From contig NZ_QYUK01000011.1 of the NCBI RefSeq assembly GCF_003590945.1, forward strand, positions 3,256,909-3,320,908: a DNA stretch of 64,000 nt, in the 5' to 3' direction. The position numbers and the translations under genes were made by a program. Of this stretch, positions 11,132 to 45,492 are shown in pieces. This DNA comes from Oleomonas cavernae. Lineage in GTDB: Bacteria > Pseudomonadota > Alphaproteobacteria > Zavarziniales > Zavarziniaceae. A model generated the notes under the pieces. It was not told where the DNA came from and searched no databases. It was given only the letters and a program-made list of their open reading frames with translations. Within the stretch, counting starts at the first letter, position 1; the number at the start of each line of letters is the position of its first letter.

Positions 11132-11206
<75 letters not shown>

Positions 11207-38190: not shown

Positions 38191-38823
38191 ATGCGCACCG
38201 TCTTGCTTTTTCTTCTGTTCGGCGTCTTCGCCTCGGCCGCCCAAGCGGCGGAATTGGCGATAAGCGAGATCGCCATCATCCCGATTCATGGCGGCTTCAA
38301 CACCGTGGAACATTTCGCCGCGGACGACCGAACCGCCACCGTTATCAGAGCTTGGCGCGGCAACGGGAACGCCCATGGCCACTACAGTTACCTCGTGCTG
38401 CTGCCGCTGGTGGAAAGCCGGGGCACTGACGGCGAGATGGGCGTGGTCGCCTTCGACGATGGCGTGAGCCCGCTCAAAGACACGGCGAGCGTCTCGCCCT
38501 TTGATGGCGAGCGGGTGCTTGGTGCATTACGTTTCGCGCGGGCAAAACTCGACGGCGTCGCGGCAACCGTGGTTATTCGCGCCGACCTCGGCGAGTCCGA
38601 CAGCGGCATTCTCGCGGACCACGCTCCTGTGGATATCAGTATCTACAGGCTGGAACAGCCAGACACCGGCGCCGGGACGACGCCCGATGTGTTCCGTATC
38701 GTGAGCAAGGCGCGGCCCACGGCCCGGTTCTGCAACGCCGACATGGCGTTGACCACGATCCTGCATCTGCCGCTGCCTGCCGACTACGCCGGCGGCGCGG
38801 GACCGAGCGGCTGCGGCGACTAG
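38191..38823 (+). CDS. Secreted protein of unknown function, possibly CarG-like
   Basis: 210 residues with a clear signal peptide (MRTVLLFLLFGVFASAAQA). The mature start (GGFNTVEHF...ATVIRAWRGNGNAHGHYSYLVLLPLVE) loosely resembles the CarG-type pattern G-x-N...a-W/R-x-N-x-N-A-H. That similarity is weak. Codon use is less GC-biased than in neighbours: it uses GCA, TTA (not followed by GG), GGT and CGT. It probably came by transfer or is weakly expressed. Confidence 0.5.
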   Translation: MRTVLLFLLFGVFASAAQAAELAISEIAIIPIHGGFNTVEHFAADDRTATVIRAWRGNGNAHGHYSYLVLLPLVESRGTDGEMGVVAFDDGVSPLKDTASVSPFDGERVLGALRFARAKLDGVAATVVIRADLGESDSGILADHAPVDISIYRLEQPDTGAGTTPDVFRIVSKARPTARFCNADMALTTILHLPLPADYAGGAGPSGCGD

Positions 38824-38840
38824 GTTGAAGAAGATTATAT

Positions 38841-38920
38841 CGTCATCCCGGCGCAGGCCGGGATCCATTCTGGGGCAGCGCGCGATGTCGCAATGGATCC
38901 CGGCCTCCGCCGGGATGACG
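38841..38920. repeat. 80-bp palindromic repeat, family B copy 1
   Basis: Arms CGTCATCCCGGC...GGCCGGGATCCATT and AATGGATCCCGGCC...GCCGGGATGACG around a CTGGGGCAGCGCGCGATGTC core. It lies between two convergent genes. The copy at 44488 is in the opposite orientation. Confidence 0.8.
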
Positions 38921-38946
38921 GCTGAGGTGAAACAGGGCTGACCTCG

Positions 38947-40536
38947 TTAGACCCCCTCGGGCTCGCACAGGACCAGGGTTTCGTCCGCTTCATCCTCGTC
39001 CTTCACCTCGTGGCGGCGGACGAAGACGATGGCGATGAGGGCGGCGACCAGGGTGATCGCGGCCAGCACCAGCATCGCCGCGGAAAAGGCATCGGCATAG
39101 AGCTGCGTGAGCAGGCCGGTCCCCAGCGACGGGGCCGCCAGCGCCGCTTCGCCCAGCTTGCCGCCAACCATGCCGTTGGCCGTGGCGATGACGGCGTCGG
39201 GCGCAAGCTTGCCGGCCCGCACCAGGCCCGCCTGGGCAAAGCCCAGCAGCACCGCGCCCGTTACCGCGATGGCGATGCTCTCGCCGGCCACGCGGGCGGT
39301 GGCAAAGATGCCGACCGCCATGCCCGCCCGCTCCTTGGGCACCACGGAAACCGCCAGGTCGTCCATCAGGCCCCAGGGAATCGCCGCCCCCACGCCGATC
39401 AGCAGCAGGGGCAGCACGAAGGCGACGGGCCCGGCCCCCGGCGCCACGAAGGCCAGCAGGCCGAGGCCGACGGCGCCGATGATCAGGCCCAGGCCCGACA
39501 GGGGGCCGGCCGGCACCCATTTGGTCAGCAAGGCGCCCAGGAAGGGGATGATCGCGATCGGCGCGCTGAGCGGCAGCATCAGCAGGCCGGCCTCGGCGGC
39601 ACTCATGCCCTCGATCCCGACCAGGCGCGCGGGGAGGACGAACAGCACCACGATGAAGCTGTAGGCGACCGCCACCGGCAGCGACTGCACCGCCAGGAAG
39701 CGCGGATAGGTGAACAGAGTCACGTCCAGCATCGGCCGCTCCTGCGCCCGCTCGATCGCCAGGAAGGCACCCAGCATGACGACGAAGCCGCCGATCAGCG
39801 CCAGCACCAGCGGGCTGGACCAGCCGCTTTGCGGGCCTTGCATGATCGCCAGCGTCAGCAGGGTCAAGGTCACGGTGAAGGCGACGACGCCCCAGATGTC
39901 GAAGCGCTTGGCATCGGGGTCGCGCGATTCGCGCAGGCGCGGCACGCCCACCGCCAGCACACCCAGGCTGAGGATGGCAACCGCCACGAAGATGGCGCGC
40001 CAGCCCAGGCTGCCGATCAGGGCGCCGCCGATGATCGGGCCGAAGGCGATGCCGATGCCAAAGCCGGTGCCGAGGATGCTGAAGGCCCGGGTGCGGGCCC
40101 GGCCCTCGAATTCCTGGGCCAGGGCGGCAAAGCCGGCGATCATGGCCAGGGCGCCCGCCGCCCCCTGGAGGGTGCGGGCAATGTCCAGCACCAGCAGCGT
40201 GGGCGAAAAGGCCACGATCAGGGACAGGATCGTGTAGGCGACGAGGCCGATGCCGAACAGGCGCTTGCGCCCGAACATGTCGGCCAGGGCGCCGGCCGCC
40301 ATCACGGCACTGCCGAAAGCCAGGAAGGCGCCGTTGACCACCCAGTTCAGCGCCACCGCGCTGCCGCCCAGCTCGGCGCCGATGGCCGGCAGGGCGACGA
40401 CGGGGGCGACGAAGCCCAGCGGCATCATCACCGCGGCGAGGAAAACCGCGCCCAGCACCAGCCATTTTTCCGGCGCGATGCGGGCGTCATCGAGGGGAAC
40501 GGCCGGACCGGCCGTGCGGAGAATATCCTGCGACAT
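38947..40536 (-). CDS. MFS drug-resistance transporter (DHA2, 14-segment type)
   Basis: 529 residues with about fourteen hydrophobic segments, the motif LADMFGRKRLFGIGLVAYTI after segment 2 and GTGFGIGIAFGPIIGGALIG (motif C of antiporters). It is probably a proton-driven exporter of cationic or hydrophobic compounds. The divergent TetR gene 119 bp away is its probable repressor. Confidence 0.88.
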   Translation of the reverse strand: MSQDILRTAGPAVPLDDARIAPEKWLVLGAVFLAAVMMPLGFVAPVVALPAIGAELGGSAVALNWVVNGAFLAFGSAVMAAGALADMFGRKRLFGIGLVAYTILSLIVAFSPTLLVLDIARTLQGAAGALAMIAGFAALAQEFEGRARTRAFSILGTGFGIGIAFGPIIGGALIGSLGWRAIFVAVAILSLGVLAVGVPRLRESRDPDAKRFDIWGVVAFTVTLTLLTLAIMQGPQSGWSSPLVLALIGGFVVMLGAFLAIERAQERPMLDVTLFTYPRFLAVQSLPVAVAYSFIVVLFVLPARLVGIEGMSAAEAGLLMLPLSAPIAIIPFLGALLTKWVPAGPLSGLGLIIGAVGLGLLAFVAPGAGPVAFVLPLLLIGVGAAIPWGLMDDLAVSVVPKERAGMAVGIFATARVAGESIAIAVTGAVLLGFAQAGLVRAGKLAPDAVIATANGMVGGKLGEAALAAPSLGTGLLTQLYADAFSAAMLVLAAITLVAALIAIVFVRRHEVKDEDEADETLVLCEPEGV

Positions 40537-40549
40537 GCGCGTGGCTCGT

Positions 40550-40575
40550 ATTTATGTGTTGATTGATATATAAAT
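40550..40575. promoter_or_regulatory. AT-rich inverted repeat between the MFS and TetR genes
   Basis: ATTTAT and ATAAAT arms separated by 14 bp, in an AT-rich 119-bp divergent intergenic region. Candidate TetR operator, close to the MFS start (40536). Confidence 0.4.
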
Positions 40576-40655
40576 AGCTAGACCACTTGCCGCTGCACCG
40601 CAACAAGATTATTTAACGATCACTACACAAAAAAACATGGGAAAGAGGTGGAGCC

Positions 40656-41276
40656 ATGGCCCAGCGCGGCCGCCCTCGCTGTTTCGACCGTACCCAGGCC
40701 TTGCAACAGGCGATGGAAGTGTTCTGGGCGCGCGGCTACGAGGGCACGAGCATGGCGGAACTGACGGCGGCGATGGGCATCGCCTCGCCCAGCCTCTATG
40801 CCGCCTTCGGCAGCAAGCAGCAGCTTTTCCGCGAGGCGACGGAATTGTATGCCCAGACCGAGGGTTCGGGCACCTGGGCGACCTTCGACGGCCATGCCAC
40901 GGCGCGCGAGGCGATCGCGGCGCTGCTGCGCACGACGGCGGAGAATGTCACCGCGCCGGGCAAGCCGCCGGGCTGCTTTACCATTTTCGCGGCCGCCAAC
41001 TGCGCACCCGAGAACGACGAGGTCCGCCGCGACATGGCCCAGCGCCGGCTCTCGGTCTGCGATCACGTCCGCCTGCGCCTGGAACGCGCCATCGCCGAGG
41101 GTGAACTGCCGCCGGGGACGAACGCCCGGTCGCTGACCTCGTATTTCATGGCGGTCCAGCAGGGCATGTCGATCAGGGCGCGCGACGGCGGCAGCCGGGA
41201 AGAACTCCTGGACGTCGCCCGCCACGCCATGGCGGTGTGGAACGGCCTGACGGCGCCGAGCGCCACCGGCACTTGA
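40656..41276 (+). CDS. TetR/AcrR family transcriptional regulator
   Basis: 206 residues. Typical N-terminal HTH: RTQALQQAMEVFWARGYEGTSMAELTAAMGIASPSLYAAFGSKQQLF. The C-terminal ligand domain includes PPGCFTIFAAANCAPENDE, with two cysteines near residues 108 and 116. AGAGGTGG precedes the ATG. It is divergent from the DHA2-type exporter, which it probably represses. Confidence 0.9.
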   Translation: MAQRGRPRCFDRTQALQQAMEVFWARGYEGTSMAELTAAMGIASPSLYAAFGSKQQLFREATELYAQTEGSGTWATFDGHATAREAIAALLRTTAENVTAPGKPPGCFTIFAAANCAPENDEVRRDMAQRRLSVCDHVRLRLERAIAEGELPPGTNARSLTSYFMAVQQGMSIRARDGGSREELLDVARHAMAVWNGLTAPSATGT

Positions 41277-41464
41277 TCGCTCCCCGCCTGTTGATTTCTC
41301 GACGAGGGCTGCGAAGGCATGTTGCGCGCATCATTTCTTTACGATCTGGTGACATTGCTAGCCGGTGCGCTGCGACCGATTGCCTAGTTCCATGGTCGAA
41401 GAGGCAATCCCGGCATCAAGGCGTATGGTCTGAAAAAGGGGCCTCCCGGCCCGGAGTGTAGTTG

Positions 41465-42709
41465 ATGCTCTATCATTTGTTCGAGATGACTCATGCCGCC
41501 GTGGCGCCCCTGCGCTACATGGCCGAGACCACCAAGGCGGCGCTGGACAACAGCTTCAATCCCTGGGGCGAGACGCCCGGCGGCAAGGCCCTGTCGGCCG
41601 CCTGCGAGATGATCGAGCGCACCACGCGGCGCTATGGCAAGCCGGCCTTCGGCCTCGACACCACCATGATCCACGGCCAGCCGGTACCGGTGACCGAGGT
41701 GGTGGTCGCCGCCAAGCCGTTCTGCAACCTGATTCACTTCAAGCGCGACGCCGCGGTCAACCCGCGCCAGCGGCCCGACCCCAAGGTACTGGTCGTCGCC
41801 CCCCTGTCGGGCCACTACGCCACCCTGCTGCGCGGTACCGTGTCGGCGATGCTGTCCGAACACGAGGTCTATGTGACCGACTGGGCCGATGCCCGCCTCG
41901 TGCCCCTGTCCGAAGGCAAGTTCGACCTCGAGACCTACACCCAGTACCTGATCGACTTCCTGCAACTGCTCGGCCCCGGCACCCATGCCATGGGCGTGTG
42001 CCAGCCGGGCGTGCCGCTCTTGATGGCGACCGCGGTGATGGCGCAAGACGACGATCCCTGTGCGCCCGCCTCGATCGTCATCATGGGCAGCCCGATCGAC
42101 ACCCGGCGCAGCCCGACCGTCCCCAACAAGCTGGCGACGCAAAAGCCCATCGAGTGGTTCCGCGACAATGTGATCACCGCCGTGCCGTGGCCTCACGCCG
42201 GCTTTACCCGGCGGGTCTATCCGGGTTTCCTGCAACTCACCGGGTTCATGACCATGAACCTGGAACGCCACATGGACGCCCACCAGTCGCTGTACAAGAA
42301 CCTGGTCGCCGGCGACGGCGATCCGGTCCAGGCGCACCGCGAATTCTATGACGAATACCTGGCCGTCCTCGACCTGACCGAGGAATTCTACCTCCAGACC
42401 GTCGCCCAGGTGTTCCAGGAGCACGCCCTGCCCCTGGGCAAGATGATGTTCAAGGGCCGCACGGTGAACCCGGCCGCCATCACCAAGACGGCGCTGATGA
42501 CCGTCGAGGGCGAGAACGACGACATCTCCGGCATCGGCCAGACCCAAGCCGCCCACGACCTGTGTCCCAACATCCCCGCCGCGAAGAAGTTCGACTACAT
42601 CCAGCCCGGCGTCGGCCACTACGGCGTCTTCAACGGCACCCGCTGGCGCACCGAAATCCAGCCCCGCGTGCGCGATTTCATCAGGAGCAATCTGGCCAAG
42701 AAATCCTGA
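41465..42709 (+). CDS. phaZ: Intracellular polyhydroxyalkanoate depolymerase
   Basis: 414 residues, alpha/beta hydrolase fold without signal peptide. The cysteine nucleophile box of intracellular PhaZ is present (MGVCQPGVPLL, C179), with the Asp near 352 (VEGENDDISG) and the His near 385 (PGVGHYGVFNG), spacing as in R. eutropha PhaZ1. It mobilises stored poly(3-hydroxybutyrate). I start at ATG 41465; TTG 41462 is also in frame. A GGGCC-CTCC-GGCCC-like hairpin lies just upstream. No phaC or phasin gene is adjacent. Confidence 0.9.
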   Translation: MLYHLFEMTHAAVAPLRYMAETTKAALDNSFNPWGETPGGKALSAACEMIERTTRRYGKPAFGLDTTMIHGQPVPVTEVVVAAKPFCNLIHFKRDAAVNPRQRPDPKVLVVAPLSGHYATLLRGTVSAMLSEHEVYVTDWADARLVPLSEGKFDLETYTQYLIDFLQLLGPGTHAMGVCQPGVPLLMATAVMAQDDDPCAPASIVIMGSPIDTRRSPTVPNKLATQKPIEWFRDNVITAVPWPHAGFTRRVYPGFLQLTGFMTMNLERHMDAHQSLYKNLVAGDGDPVQAHREFYDEYLAVLDLTEEFYLQTVAQVFQEHALPLGKMMFKGRTVNPAAITKTALMTVEGENDDISGIGQTQAAHDLCPNIPAAKKFDYIQPGVGHYGVFNGTRWRTEIQPRVRDFIRSNLAKKS

Positions 42710-42719
42710 AGCCGGCCGT

Positions 42720-42938
42720 CTAGCGGAACGCCCGCAGCGCCAGCCAGGCGCAGACGACCACGGCACCCACGACAATGAGGCCGTGGGTGGTCTGGGCGGC
42801 ATCGACCAGGTCCCAGAACGAGCTTTCGAAATCGGGCATGCTGACGGCGGCCCGCATCGTGGTCGCCTGCACCGTGACCGCCTGAATCGTGACCGGCGGC
42901 ACTGTGAGGCTCAGGAAACTGGTGAACAGGTCGACCAT
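42720..42938 (-). CDS. Small single-pass membrane protein, unknown
   Basis: 72 residues from ATG 42938. A hydrophobic start (FTSFLSLTVPP) leads into a Thr/Val pseudo-repeat (VTIQAVTVQATTM), then an amphipathic segment and a C-terminal membrane helix (GLIVVGAVVVCAWLALRAF). Function unknown. It is convergent with phaZ (10 bp gap). The ORF remains open to 43115, but no ribosome site supports that. Confidence 0.45.
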   Translation of the reverse strand: MVDLFTSFLSLTVPPVTIQAVTVQATTMRAAVSMPDFESSFWDLVDAAQTTHGLIVVGAVVVCAWLALRAFR

Positions 42939-43145
42939 GGCCACGTGCTTGGGTACCCTCGATATGACGGAAAAATCCCCCAAATAGGGCCCAAACACAA
43001 GGATAGATGGCCCCAGCTTCCGGGCTGAAATGTCCCCGCGGGGCAAGCCGCCACGGGCTTTCGGGTCATTGTCACGAGGCTTTTGTTGCGCCGGCCGGAC
43101 CGGCATGATGAGCACCGTTCACATCCGGGGGCCATCGGGGGCTTG

Positions 43146-44480
43146 ATGACGTCGCGTTGCCTTGCTGCCTTTCCACCGCCGCCCTGGGCCGCGCTGCCGC
43201 CCGACCGCCCCCTGAACTTCTGGCGCCGCCTGGCCCTGGTCCTGCTGTTCGCCCTGGTCGGCCTGGCGTGCCTGGGCCTGGTCGGGCTGGCCGGGTATTC
43301 GGCGCATCGCGAGCACCTGTGGCAGGACACGCTGGCGACCATCGGCCTGGGCGAGGCCGTGGCCAACGGCGAGGCCCAGGTGGCCTGCCAGTACGAGCCG
43401 GGCGGCCGGCGCAGCCTCGGCCGCTATGCCTGCCACGTCCGCCTCACCGTGGGCAGCGGCGCGGCGGCCGTGGCCGAATGGGATTTCTCGACCCATTGGG
43501 GCCTCTACGACAATTCGGCCGACCTGGGGCGAGGCGTGCGGCGCCTGTCCCTGTCCCCCGACGGTTATGCCATGGTCACCACCTGGGCCGGCCTGCTGGA
43601 CCGCGCCGGCGGGGCCTTCATCGGCCCCCTGGTCATGATCGCCTTCTGCTCGATCCCGTTCTTCATCACGGCCTGGCAGCGGCGCGGGCAACGGAAACTG
43701 GAGGCCGCGGCGGCGGCCGGCCACCTGATCGAGGTCGACATCCTGCGGCGCACCAAACAGACCGGGCGCTACAACAGCGTCATCTGGGCCTGGGAGGTCG
43801 CCTATGACGATCCGGCGAACGGGGCGCGGCGGCGTTACTACGCCTACTACGGCGAGGGCACCGTGCCGTTGACCATCGACTGGGCGGCCAGCCGGGGGAT
43901 CGCCCTGATAGGCCCCCGCAAGCCCGTCGCCCTGCTCACCGAGCGGCTGTGGCCGCTGGACCTGGACCCGACCGATTACACCAGGATCGTGGCGGCCGCG
44001 GCGGTCGACCGCGAGAGCGACCATGACGCCCGGCGCAACACCGGCGAGTACCGCGACTGGACGAGGGAAGCCCCCAGTTTCGCCGCCCAGTTCGACCGGG
44101 CGGTGGCCCTGGGCGAGGCGGGCGACGGCGACGCCTGCTATACCGTGGGCTGGCTCATCTTCCACGGCCAGGGCGTGGCCCGCGACAGCGCCGTCGCCGC
44201 CCAATGGTTCGAGCGCGGCGCCCTGGCCGATGATCCACGGTCCCAGCACAATCTGGCCCACCTGCTGCATCACGGCGACGGGGTGGTGAAGAACGATCGC
44301 CTGGCCACGTTCTGGGCCCAGGTCGCGGCCAGGCGCTATGCCATGCCGCAGGACGGCCAAGCCGCCCTGGCCCTGCGCAGCAATGCCGCGGAAAAACTGT
44401 CGCCGCGCGAACTCGACGCGATCATCCAGGATGCCCGCGCCTGGCACCCGGGCGTCGCCCCGCTGGCATCACTGTCATAA
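43146..44480 (+). CDS. Membrane protein with DUF3592-like domain and C-terminal Sel1-like repeats
   Basis: 444 residues. Membrane helix 1 (RRLALVLLFALVGLACLGLVGLAGY) and helix 2 (GGAFIGPLVMIAFCSIPFFITAW) flank a soluble segment resembling DUF3592 (AVANGEAQVACQYEPGG). A second similar segment follows. The end has Sel1-type repeats: GEAGDGDACYTVGWLIFHGQGVARD and ALADDPRSQHNLAHLLHHGDGVVKND. Sel1 repeats bind proteins; role unknown. Confidence 0.65.
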   Translation: MTSRCLAAFPPPPWAALPPDRPLNFWRRLALVLLFALVGLACLGLVGLAGYSAHREHLWQDTLATIGLGEAVANGEAQVACQYEPGGRRSLGRYACHVRLTVGSGAAAVAEWDFSTHWGLYDNSADLGRGVRRLSLSPDGYAMVTTWAGLLDRAGGAFIGPLVMIAFCSIPFFITAWQRRGQRKLEAAAAAGHLIEVDILRRTKQTGRYNSVIWAWEVAYDDPANGARRRYYAYYGEGTVPLTIDWAASRGIALIGPRKPVALLTERLWPLDLDPTDYTRIVAAAAVDRESDHDARRNTGEYRDWTREAPSFAAQFDRAVALGEAGDGDACYTVGWLIFHGQGVARDSAVAAQWFERGALADDPRSQHNLAHLLHHGDGVVKNDRLATFWAQVAARRYAMPQDGQAALALRSNAAEKLSPRELDAIIQDARAWHPGVAPLASLS

Positions 44481-44487
44481 CCTCCAG

Positions 44488-44567
44488 CGTCATTCCGGCG
44501 AAGGCCGGAATCCATTGAGACGTCGCGCGCTGCCCCAGAATGGATTCCGGCCTTCGCCGGAATGACG
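44488..44567. repeat. 80-bp palindromic repeat, family B copy 2 (inverted)
   Basis: Arms CGTCATTCCGGC...GGCCGGAATCCATT and AATGGATTCCGGCC...GCCGGAATGACG around a core that is the reverse complement of the core at 38841 (reads GACGTCGCGCGCTGCCCCAG here). Same length of 80 bp, again between convergent genes. Confidence 0.8.
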
Positions 44568-44583
44568 ATAGAGGGTGGCGTTG

Positions 44584-45492
44584 CTAGTCGAGCGGCTGTT
44601 CGAGCAGCTTGAAGCCTCGGGGCAGCTTGGCACGGGTGGTGTCCAGGCGGCCTGAAACCAGGGGGATCTCCAGCCGGCTGGGCTTTTCCATCGGGTAATC
44701 GGCGATGATCCAGACCAGGAGCGGGTCGGCCGCCTTGTTGCCCGGCACCTCGACGACCGGCTTGGCCTCGCCGCCGGCCTTGAGCGCCCAGCCCATGACA
44801 TGCTCCAGCGCCGGCATGTCGTCGACCGTCCGCCCGGTGGCGACCGACTCCAGGCGCAGCCGCTGTACCGGCCTGCCGTCGCCCAGCAGGATCATCTGGG
44901 CCACGGTCTTGTTGTCCTCGCCCAGGATATCCACATCCAATTGCGCGCCGACGGTCAGCACCTCCACCGTCCAGGCTACCGTGTCGCGGCCGAACAGCCG
45001 GAGCACCGGGACCGGCACATTGTCCGAGCGTACCGACAGCATCTTGCCGGTCAGCAGATCCAAGCTGCGCAAGGTCCGAAATGAATCGCAGCAGCCATAG
45101 TTCTCGGCGATCACCGGTTCCTGCGCGAATTCCGGCACGGTGATCGCATCGGCTTCGACCGTCCATTGTGCCTTGACCGGCCCCAGGCCCGCTGCGGCGG
45201 CATCGCGGATGCTGAGCACACGTTGCGCCGTGGGCGGATAGCTGCTCTCGCTCGAATAGAGGTCGTGCAACTGGGTGGTTTCGACCTCGACCAGCAGATA
45301 GCGCTGGTCATCGGCACCGCCATAGTAGTAGGCGCGGTGGTAATCCCGGCTGACGGTCTGCATGCGCGGCCCGGTCTCGCCCACTGCCGGCACGATCGTC
45401 ACCGCCGTCTGGCCGTCCAGCCGGTTCGCGTCCTGCGCCCAGGCGGGGGCGGCCCCCGCCGCGATCAGGAGGCCGAGAGCGGCAAGGCGCAT
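44584..45492 (-). CDS. Secreted protein of unknown function (paralogue of the upstream gene)
   Basis: 302 residues with signal peptide MRLAALGLLIAAGAAPAWAQ. The best conserved block, shared with the neighbour at 45497, is ENYGCCDSFRTLRSLDLLTGKMLSVRSD, containing adjacent cysteines. The earlier block TVSRDYHRAYYYGGADDQRYLLVEVETTQ is also shared. No family recognised. It is probably periplasmic. It starts 4 bp after the stop of the paralogue. Confidence 0.6.
   Translation of the reverse strand: MRLAALGLLIAAGAAPAWAQDANRLDGQTAVTIVPAVGETGPRMQTVSRDYHRAYYYGGADDQRYLLVEVETTQLHDLYSSESSYPPTAQRVLSIRDAAAAGLGPVKAQWTVEADAITVPEFAQEPVIAENYGCCDSFRTLRSLDLLTGKMLSVRSDNVPVPVLRLFGRDTVAWTVEVLTVGAQLDVDILGEDNKTVAQMILLGDGRPVQRLRLESVATGRTVDDMPALEHVMGWALKAGGEAKPVVEVPGNKAADPLLVWIIADYPMEKPSRLEIPLVSGRLDTTRAKLPRGFKLLEQPLD

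Follow-up and report, generated by a model that had tools for sequence, protein, structure and literature searches.

CGTC-1 REP dimers of Oleomonas cavernae and a suggested pairing with small GIY-YIG nucleases

The closest described relatives of the elements studied here are the REP sequences of the CGTC-1 class, described by Di Nocera, De Gregorio and Rocco (2013, PMC3733652). The parts of that paper used here report CGTC families in all alphaproteobacterial orders, treat the repeats as lacking association with transposase genes, and leave open which enzyme, if any, moves them; they also class the dRS3 repeats of Neisseria as CGTC-1. By their sequence, the 80-bp elements of Oleomonas cavernae are CGTC-1 REP units joined as inverted dimers; they are short, non-coding and dispersed, and their tag-outward arrangement is taken here to be the HH class of the paper. 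The sighting made in the initial annotation is correct, although the class of repeat was already known. Of greatest value is the pairing with a nuclease: comparison with other bacteria suggests that the repeats go together with a small GIY-YIG nuclease whose gene sits among the copies.

The two copies in the window and the repeat family

In the window, which is the whole stretch of 64,000 nucleotides analysed here, two elements of 80 bp with CGTCAT and ATGACG ends lie at 38841-38920 (copy 1) and 44488-44567 (copy 2), with the coordinates and sequences first annotated. Each consists of two 27-nt hairpin units, with the CGTC tags outward, around a 26-nt spacer, and each unit is made of CGTC, an 8-bp stem, a 4-nt loop and CCA. 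In copy 1, unit 1 (38841..38867, + strand) carries the CGTC tag, the 8-bp stem, a GCAG loop and the CCA tail, the spacer that forms the core (38868..38893) is in the CTGGGGCAGCGCGCGATGTC orientation, and unit 2 is inverted (38894..38920, - strand). In copy 2, unit 1 (44488..44514, + strand) is of the T-A type with a GAAG loop, the spacer (44515..44540) is in the opposite orientation to that of copy 1, and unit 2 is again inverted (44541..44567, - strand). The two cores had been described as reverse complements, which holds for 19 of the 20 bases and fails at one (GATGTC vs GACGTC). The matched changes reported in the arms are a paired C-G/T-A swap located inside each hairpin; over 206 units, this stem pair (7/22) is CG in 131, TA in 74 and TG in 1, and the remaining stem pairs hardly vary. 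Convergent ORFs, here from our own ORF caller, surround both copies as reported, and the repeats are separated from the ORF ends by 7 to 26 bp: the ORF at 38191..38823 (+) ends 17 bp upstream of copy 1 and the ORF at 38947..40536 (-) converges on it with a 26 bp gap, and the corresponding ORFs of copy 2 are at 43143..44480 (+, 7 bp) and 44584..45492 (-, 16 bp).

The half-unit pattern matched 4 times in the window (≤3 mismatches; 0.01 expected from shuffles) and 319 times (156 + 163) in the 5.64-Mb genome, where the control gave 0. A strict pattern found 84 tag-outward dimers in the whole genome. The dimers described below are a sample drawn from the matches listed and the window, not all genomic copies; it comprises 101 tag-outward dimers, 100 of them with ≤3 mismatches per unit, against few tags-inward pairs (at L007 and L037). 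The spacer is 26 nt long in 57 of these 101 and 25 to 63 nt in the rest. Over the 206 units, the first tag position is C in 189, T in 12, A in 4 and G in 1, followed by a nearly invariant GTC; the stem begins with AT in every unit, the loop is GAAG in 156, GCAG in 32, GGAG in 13 and another sequence in 5, and the unpaired tail is mostly CCA in the host-genome units. An unpaired CGTC tag, an AT-first 8-bp stem, a 4-nt loop, a mostly CCA tail and one predominant dimer type, all features of the CGTC-1 class, are found together. Among 97 dimers, 62 join like units, 34 join a CG with a TA unit, and one involves the TG unit.

A 4-bp direct repeat was found at the ends of none of the 97 dimers, with a shuffle mean of 0.36, and a classical MITE of a DDE transposase was rejected on this absence of target-site duplication. 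The outer flanks of the same dimers are biased on both sides, reading outward R-Y-N-G-N-G-G (approximately CCNCNNY before CGTC), which suggests that the recognition site is longer or that certain targets are preferred.

Several other observations were made around these repeats. Three dimers about 1 kb apart (L052:1456, 2500 and 3383) share a nearly identical 28-nt spacer. The host genome (G000) also holds a second CGTC family, whose loop is CTTG (CGTCATGGCCGGGCTTGTCCCGGCCATCCACG); it scores 15 matches and forms dimers in the examined stretches (L221-L225; C8:57770, C11:173767 and others). A small contig (G000:C19:1-4596) holds two inverted copies of about 2.3 kb of window 38978-41304, listed as 100% identical, and the duplicated sequence begins just past copy 1; it is either an assembly artefact or a recent duplication. 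The sole Rfam match over threshold within the window is a tRNA gene at 11132-11203.

Structural constraint and position relative to genes

The structure of the dimers was compared in 57 aligned 80-bp copies, 56 of them distinct. In the two-hairpin structure 99.7% of cells are paired and 40 cells are changed on both sides, compared with 14.5 in shuffles, and none of 500 shuffles reached 40; all 40 stem from one pair per hairpin. Since only one pair per hairpin varies, two further measures of this structure did not rise above shuffles, namely pairs changed on both sides (2 vs 2.0) and further pair types (3 vs 4.0). The palindrome of the entire 80 nt is 96.6% paired compared with 96.1% in shuffles, a value reached by 9 of 500 shuffles, and its pairing is far above that of slid versions; at its pair 7/74, 13 of the 56 distinct rows are unpaired and a further 12 have G-U. 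With pairing only slightly over shuffles, the 80-nt palindrome was rejected as the main constraint. The constraint acts on each 27-nt hairpin with its unpaired CGTC tag, more than on the dimer palindrome. As there is only one both-side-varying pair per hairpin in this genome, a few master sequences and their descendants, not a series of independent events, may account for much of what had been called compensatory variation. Structural constraint gains further support from units of sister genomes, where both partners of pairs 5/24, 6/23 and 7/22 vary and 6 of 608 cells are not Watson-Crick, one of them G-T.

The position of the repeats is biased. Among 100 dimers placed by our own ORF caller, 53 lie between convergent genes, 39 between genes on the same strand, 2 between divergent genes and 6 inside ORFs. 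Repeat-free gaps of at least 50 bp from the same loci number 13 convergent, 79 same-strand and 73 divergent, so the convergent share is 53/94 vs 13/165 (p 1e-17), a comparison conditioned on nearby repeats. A dimer lies within 60 bp of 90 of 106 convergent-gene ends and of 34 of 39 upstream genes in same-strand pairs. As single strands (DNA parameters), both 80-mers of the window form much more stable folds than their shuffles (z -8.3 and -11.0), as do the single 27-nt units (z -3.7 and -3.9). Convergent position, closeness to 3' ends and stable hairpins all speak for repeats selected as RNA elements, that is, bidirectional 3'-end hairpins that would protect or end both convergent transcripts. 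Against such a role, the six intragenic dimers are in frame and encode VIPAKAGIH...GLRRDD or near it, one of them VIPAQAGIH, and copies in coding regions were the very observation that the initial annotation had named as speaking against structural constraint. One of the six lies in an error-prone polymerase gene at a stretch that varies among three homologues, and three lie in ORFs of one locus (L064), which we take from their appearance to be cobalamin-pathway genes. Furthermore, four terminator-like sites were found in 38500-44900 (3.0 expected) and none at either window copy, and an intrinsic terminator in the form of a G+C-rich hairpin followed by a T run was rejected for both. The in-frame dimers and the lack of terminator-like sites at the window copies speak against a dedicated function as RNA or terminator; in addition, the long hairpin is barely above shuffles, the gap comparison is conditioned as stated, and a clade-linked pairing with a nuclease gene (below) would not be expected of RNA elements. 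We consider this explanation very unlikely. Of the selection on RNA or DNA structure that had been proposed from the two copies, structural constraint and the 3'-end position are supported, the 80-nt palindrome as the constrained unit is not, and a dedicated RNA or terminator role is disfavoured. To annotators, a tie of the repeats to a nuclease (below) would also signal that in-frame VIPAKAGI... stretches in proteins are insertions of the repeat.

Small GIY-YIG nuclease genes among the repeats

While the tags-inward units were being checked, an ORF of 95 amino acids with a GIY-YIG domain was met between two CGTC pairs (L037:8212-8676). The host genome holds four GIY-YIG matches: this gene, with CGTC pairs on both sides (C11:1183477-1183761), a second gene with a CGTC pair just upstream (C11:69069-69353), a third small gene (L112) with a palindrome of another family, the CCTCAGGATGAGG type, downstream, and a 634-aa open frame that we take to be UvrC. 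A palindrome similar to the CCTCAGGATGAGG type was also seen between CGTC units at L007:2569-2720. The right flank of the gene at C11:1183477-1183761 resembles the dimer spacers: 38 of 200 spacer readings agree with it at 14 or 15 of 16 bases, compared with 12 for the best of 4000 shuffles, and the left flank of this cassette is not above shuffles; one reading is that dimers and nuclease cassette share an origin.

The nuclease matches Pfam GIY-YIG (E 5e-14). Among 35 proteins, Y8, G16, Y19, G21, T23, E66 and N85 are invariant and R29 is nearly so, residues that we presume to be the catalytic set. The AlphaFold model of one homologue (L116; pLDDT 95.9) has UPF0213 BH0048 and the Slx1 nucleases as its nearest structures; the scores are weak, with a best E of 1.1e-3. 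NCBIfam gave the nuclease no family name over cut-off, a PDB sequence search returned no relative at E up to 10, and homologues are often annotated just as GIY-YIG nuclease family protein.

Homologue loci in other bacteria show the same neighbourhood. A first collection of 39 loci, from one scan, has 51 CGTC hairpins no more than 250 bp from the ORF (29.8 kb in all with the ORF; 17 per 10 kb) vs 25 in the remaining 274.5 kb. A CGTC hairpin lies ≤400 bp from the gene in 23 of the 39 loci, on both sides in 9 of these, and nearly all of the remaining 16 have palindromes of other sequence when the flanks are read by eye. In a sequence-blind test, 25 of 39 loci had 300-bp flanks with at least 14 bp in common; of the control placements made within these loci, 68 of 3900 did (Fisher 8e-33). 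From a second collection, of plasmids, 34 records matched and 18 loci were examined, some of them close relatives, with a detector widened to CCTC tags: CGTC, TGTC or CCTC hairpins lie ≤400 bp from the gene in 15 of the 18, on both sides in 12, at 26 per 10 kb near vs 2 far, and flanks share at least 14 bp in 14 of 18 loci vs 34 of 1080 controls. The other three loci (Planktothrix, Novosphingobium, Spirosoma) have tagged palindromes by eye. In both collections the effective numbers of loci are smaller, because several are near-duplicates or close relatives. Among the 15 loci of the second collection is that of Neisseria gonorrhoeae, whose homologue is bracketed by CGTC-1 units, which we take to be dRS3. 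In Azospirillum lipoferum (L210) an annotated GIY-YIG gene lies between sufB and sufC, and in Shinella sp. PSBB067 (L211) the flanks of an unannotated one suggest that it occupies the same site, though the hairpins there are of another type.

Hairpin type was compared with a tree of 42 proteins, for which the flank classes were assigned by hand from a DNA scan and four unclassed proteins were left out. On the 38 rows, hairpin type changes 7 times vs a shuffle minimum of 13, and after thinning to 25 rows the observed number is equalled by 3 of 1000 shuffles; for the two commonest classes alone (GNAR vs CTTG, 20 thinned rows), clustering is not beyond chance (144 of 1000 shuffles). Proteins with CATTGCGAG palindromes at their flanks group in a single clade (support 100/98), which by record titles comes from Rhizobium, Rubellimicrobium, Erythrobacter and Qipengyuania and shares an IKAGxRxKK-like sequence; most others have IKxWxRxWK. 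Hairpin type largely goes with protein clade.

Repeat copies were counted over 35 genomes, a set that leaves out G000, G002, G003, G004 and the genome of L144, and a type was called cognate where it was the class assigned to the flank of the nuclease gene. The GGCCGGGCTTG pattern scored in 6/6 cognate vs 1/29 other genomes, the CATTGCGAG pattern in 4/4 vs 12/31, and the CCGGC type in 9/11 vs 7/24. Copy number in the genome tends to go with the type at the flank, and does so strongly in one case; non-cognate exceptions are G013 (37 CATTGCGAG), G041 (29 CCGGC and 15 CATTGCGAG) and G009 (12 CATTGCGAG).

Among related genomes, that of a sister genus (G001) has both the nuclease gene and CGTC units. 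In G002 the nuclease gene, itself flanked by CGTC units, has an in-frame stop. G004 (100% complete) has the repeats, with both units in 18 of 20 places examined, and no GIY-YIG match to the nuclease alignment. G005 and G006 likewise gave no such match, in genomes only about 75% complete. In G003 the repeat pattern had 0 matches, none of the 4 listed of 8 DNA matches covers a repeat, and no nuclease gene was found. Units of G002, G004, G005 and G006 keep the stem core unchanged, and their tails are not CCA, mostly CT[TC]; the CCA-tailed pattern accordingly finds 0-5 matches in the sister genomes, and the idea that sister species nearly lack the family was rejected, as their dimers mostly carry the tail that this pattern misses.

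The repeats of G004, where no nuclease gene was found, and the targeting of REPs by insertion sequences in general (PMC1525189, in the part used) would both suit a nuclease gene that is a passenger landing in REP target sites, with the REPs spread by another enzyme, e.g., a RAYT. However, one Y1 transposase gene was found in G000, and its 3.3-kb locus has no CGTC unit (≤3 mismatches); this gene, which is flanked by other inverted repeats, was rejected as repeat partner. Moreover, the parts of PMC3733652 used here tie no transposase to CGTC repeats, and copy number tends to follow the flanking type. A passenger gene seems to us unlikely, with a better claim than selection as RNA. The Y1 gene (L001, G000:C11:1056441-1056770) has AAAAATAGGGGACGGACCACG-like inverted repeats and resembles the TIR-flanked kind mentioned in PMC3733652.

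The proposed pairing and known systems

As a whole, the best explanation, which we hold to be probable with some reserve, is that CGTC REP dimers are paired with a small GIY-YIG nuclease acting on their hairpins. The nuclease would recognise its cognate hairpin, probably where replication, recombination or DNA uptake exposes it as single-stranded DNA, and would cut there. Less certainly, repeated cutting and repair might copy dimers around the genome, the 80-bp dimers perhaps being non-autonomous partners of the nuclease-bearing cassette, and the 3'-end position would reflect where insertion is harmless. GIY-YIG enzymes cut strands but, as far as we are aware, do not join them. Points against a role as mobiliser are the repeats of G004 with no gene found, the in-frame stop in G002 and the lack of target duplication (0/97); further points against the pairing are the CTTG-loop family, for which no matching GIY-YIG gene was found in G000, and the non-cognate high-copy genomes G013, G041 and G009. 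Repeats can outlive their enzyme, and the sister comparison covers one genus.

More tentatively, and with less confidence than in the pairing itself, the whole CGTC REP superfamily might be the DNA partners of clade-matched small GIY-YIG nucleases in Proteobacteria, Cyanobacteria and Bacteroidota, with the 80-bp dimers as miniature derivatives of a REP - GIY-YIG - REP arrangement. If true, bacteria would have, in addition to RAYT/REPIN and IS/MITE, a third kind of mobile system that combines a repeat with a nuclease. Nuclease-repeat pairs are at hand in Azospirillum, Sinorhizobium, Shinella and Novosphingobium.

One system is reportedly very near. A GIY-YIG enzyme of Neisseria, one of the site-specific single-stranded nucleases called Ssn, is said, in a paper of about 2025 by Chenal, Veyrier and others, to cut single-stranded DNA at the NTS repeat, which reportedly occurs in hundreds of copies, many homologues having targets of their own. 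By this account, it is like the present case in its small GIY-YIG enzyme, its high-copy target repeat and its occurrence in Neisseria, where the gonococcal homologue is bracketed by CGTC-1 units; judged by sequence and predicted model, the REP-associated nuclease too has a GIY-YIG fold with a conserved active site. Among the titles listed in literature searches, none links GIY-YIG to CGTC-type repeats. The Ssn paper may cover part of the tie between nuclease and repeat; in that case the link would be known, and what remains would be the identity with the CGTC REP superfamily.

GTAG REP/REPIN elements with their RAYT are similar to the present elements in that short hairpins form inverted dimers which are dispersed and non-autonomous and have a tie to a small nuclease gene (in part after PMC3733652). 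However, the tag here is CGTC and the partner is GIY-YIG, not HUH/Y1, and membership of the GTAG system, with its GTAG tag and flanking Y1 transposase, was rejected on the tag and on the absence of CGTC units near the one Y1 gene found in G000. The dRS3 repeats differ in arrangement, lying mostly in large clusters in Neisseria according to the parts of PMC3733652 used here, compared with mostly simple dimers in O. cavernae. With the CGTC-1 REPs of the same parts of that paper, the present elements share the tag, the stem length, the loop length, the tail and the dimer geometry, as well as the 3'-end and convergent bias and intragenic copies, including those in DnaE2 genes. A clade-linked tie to a nuclease makes the question of the mover enzyme, as it stands in those parts, a testable pairing. 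The present case differs from that account, which reports no associated transposase, in the small GIY-YIG genes that CGTC hairpins bracket time and again.
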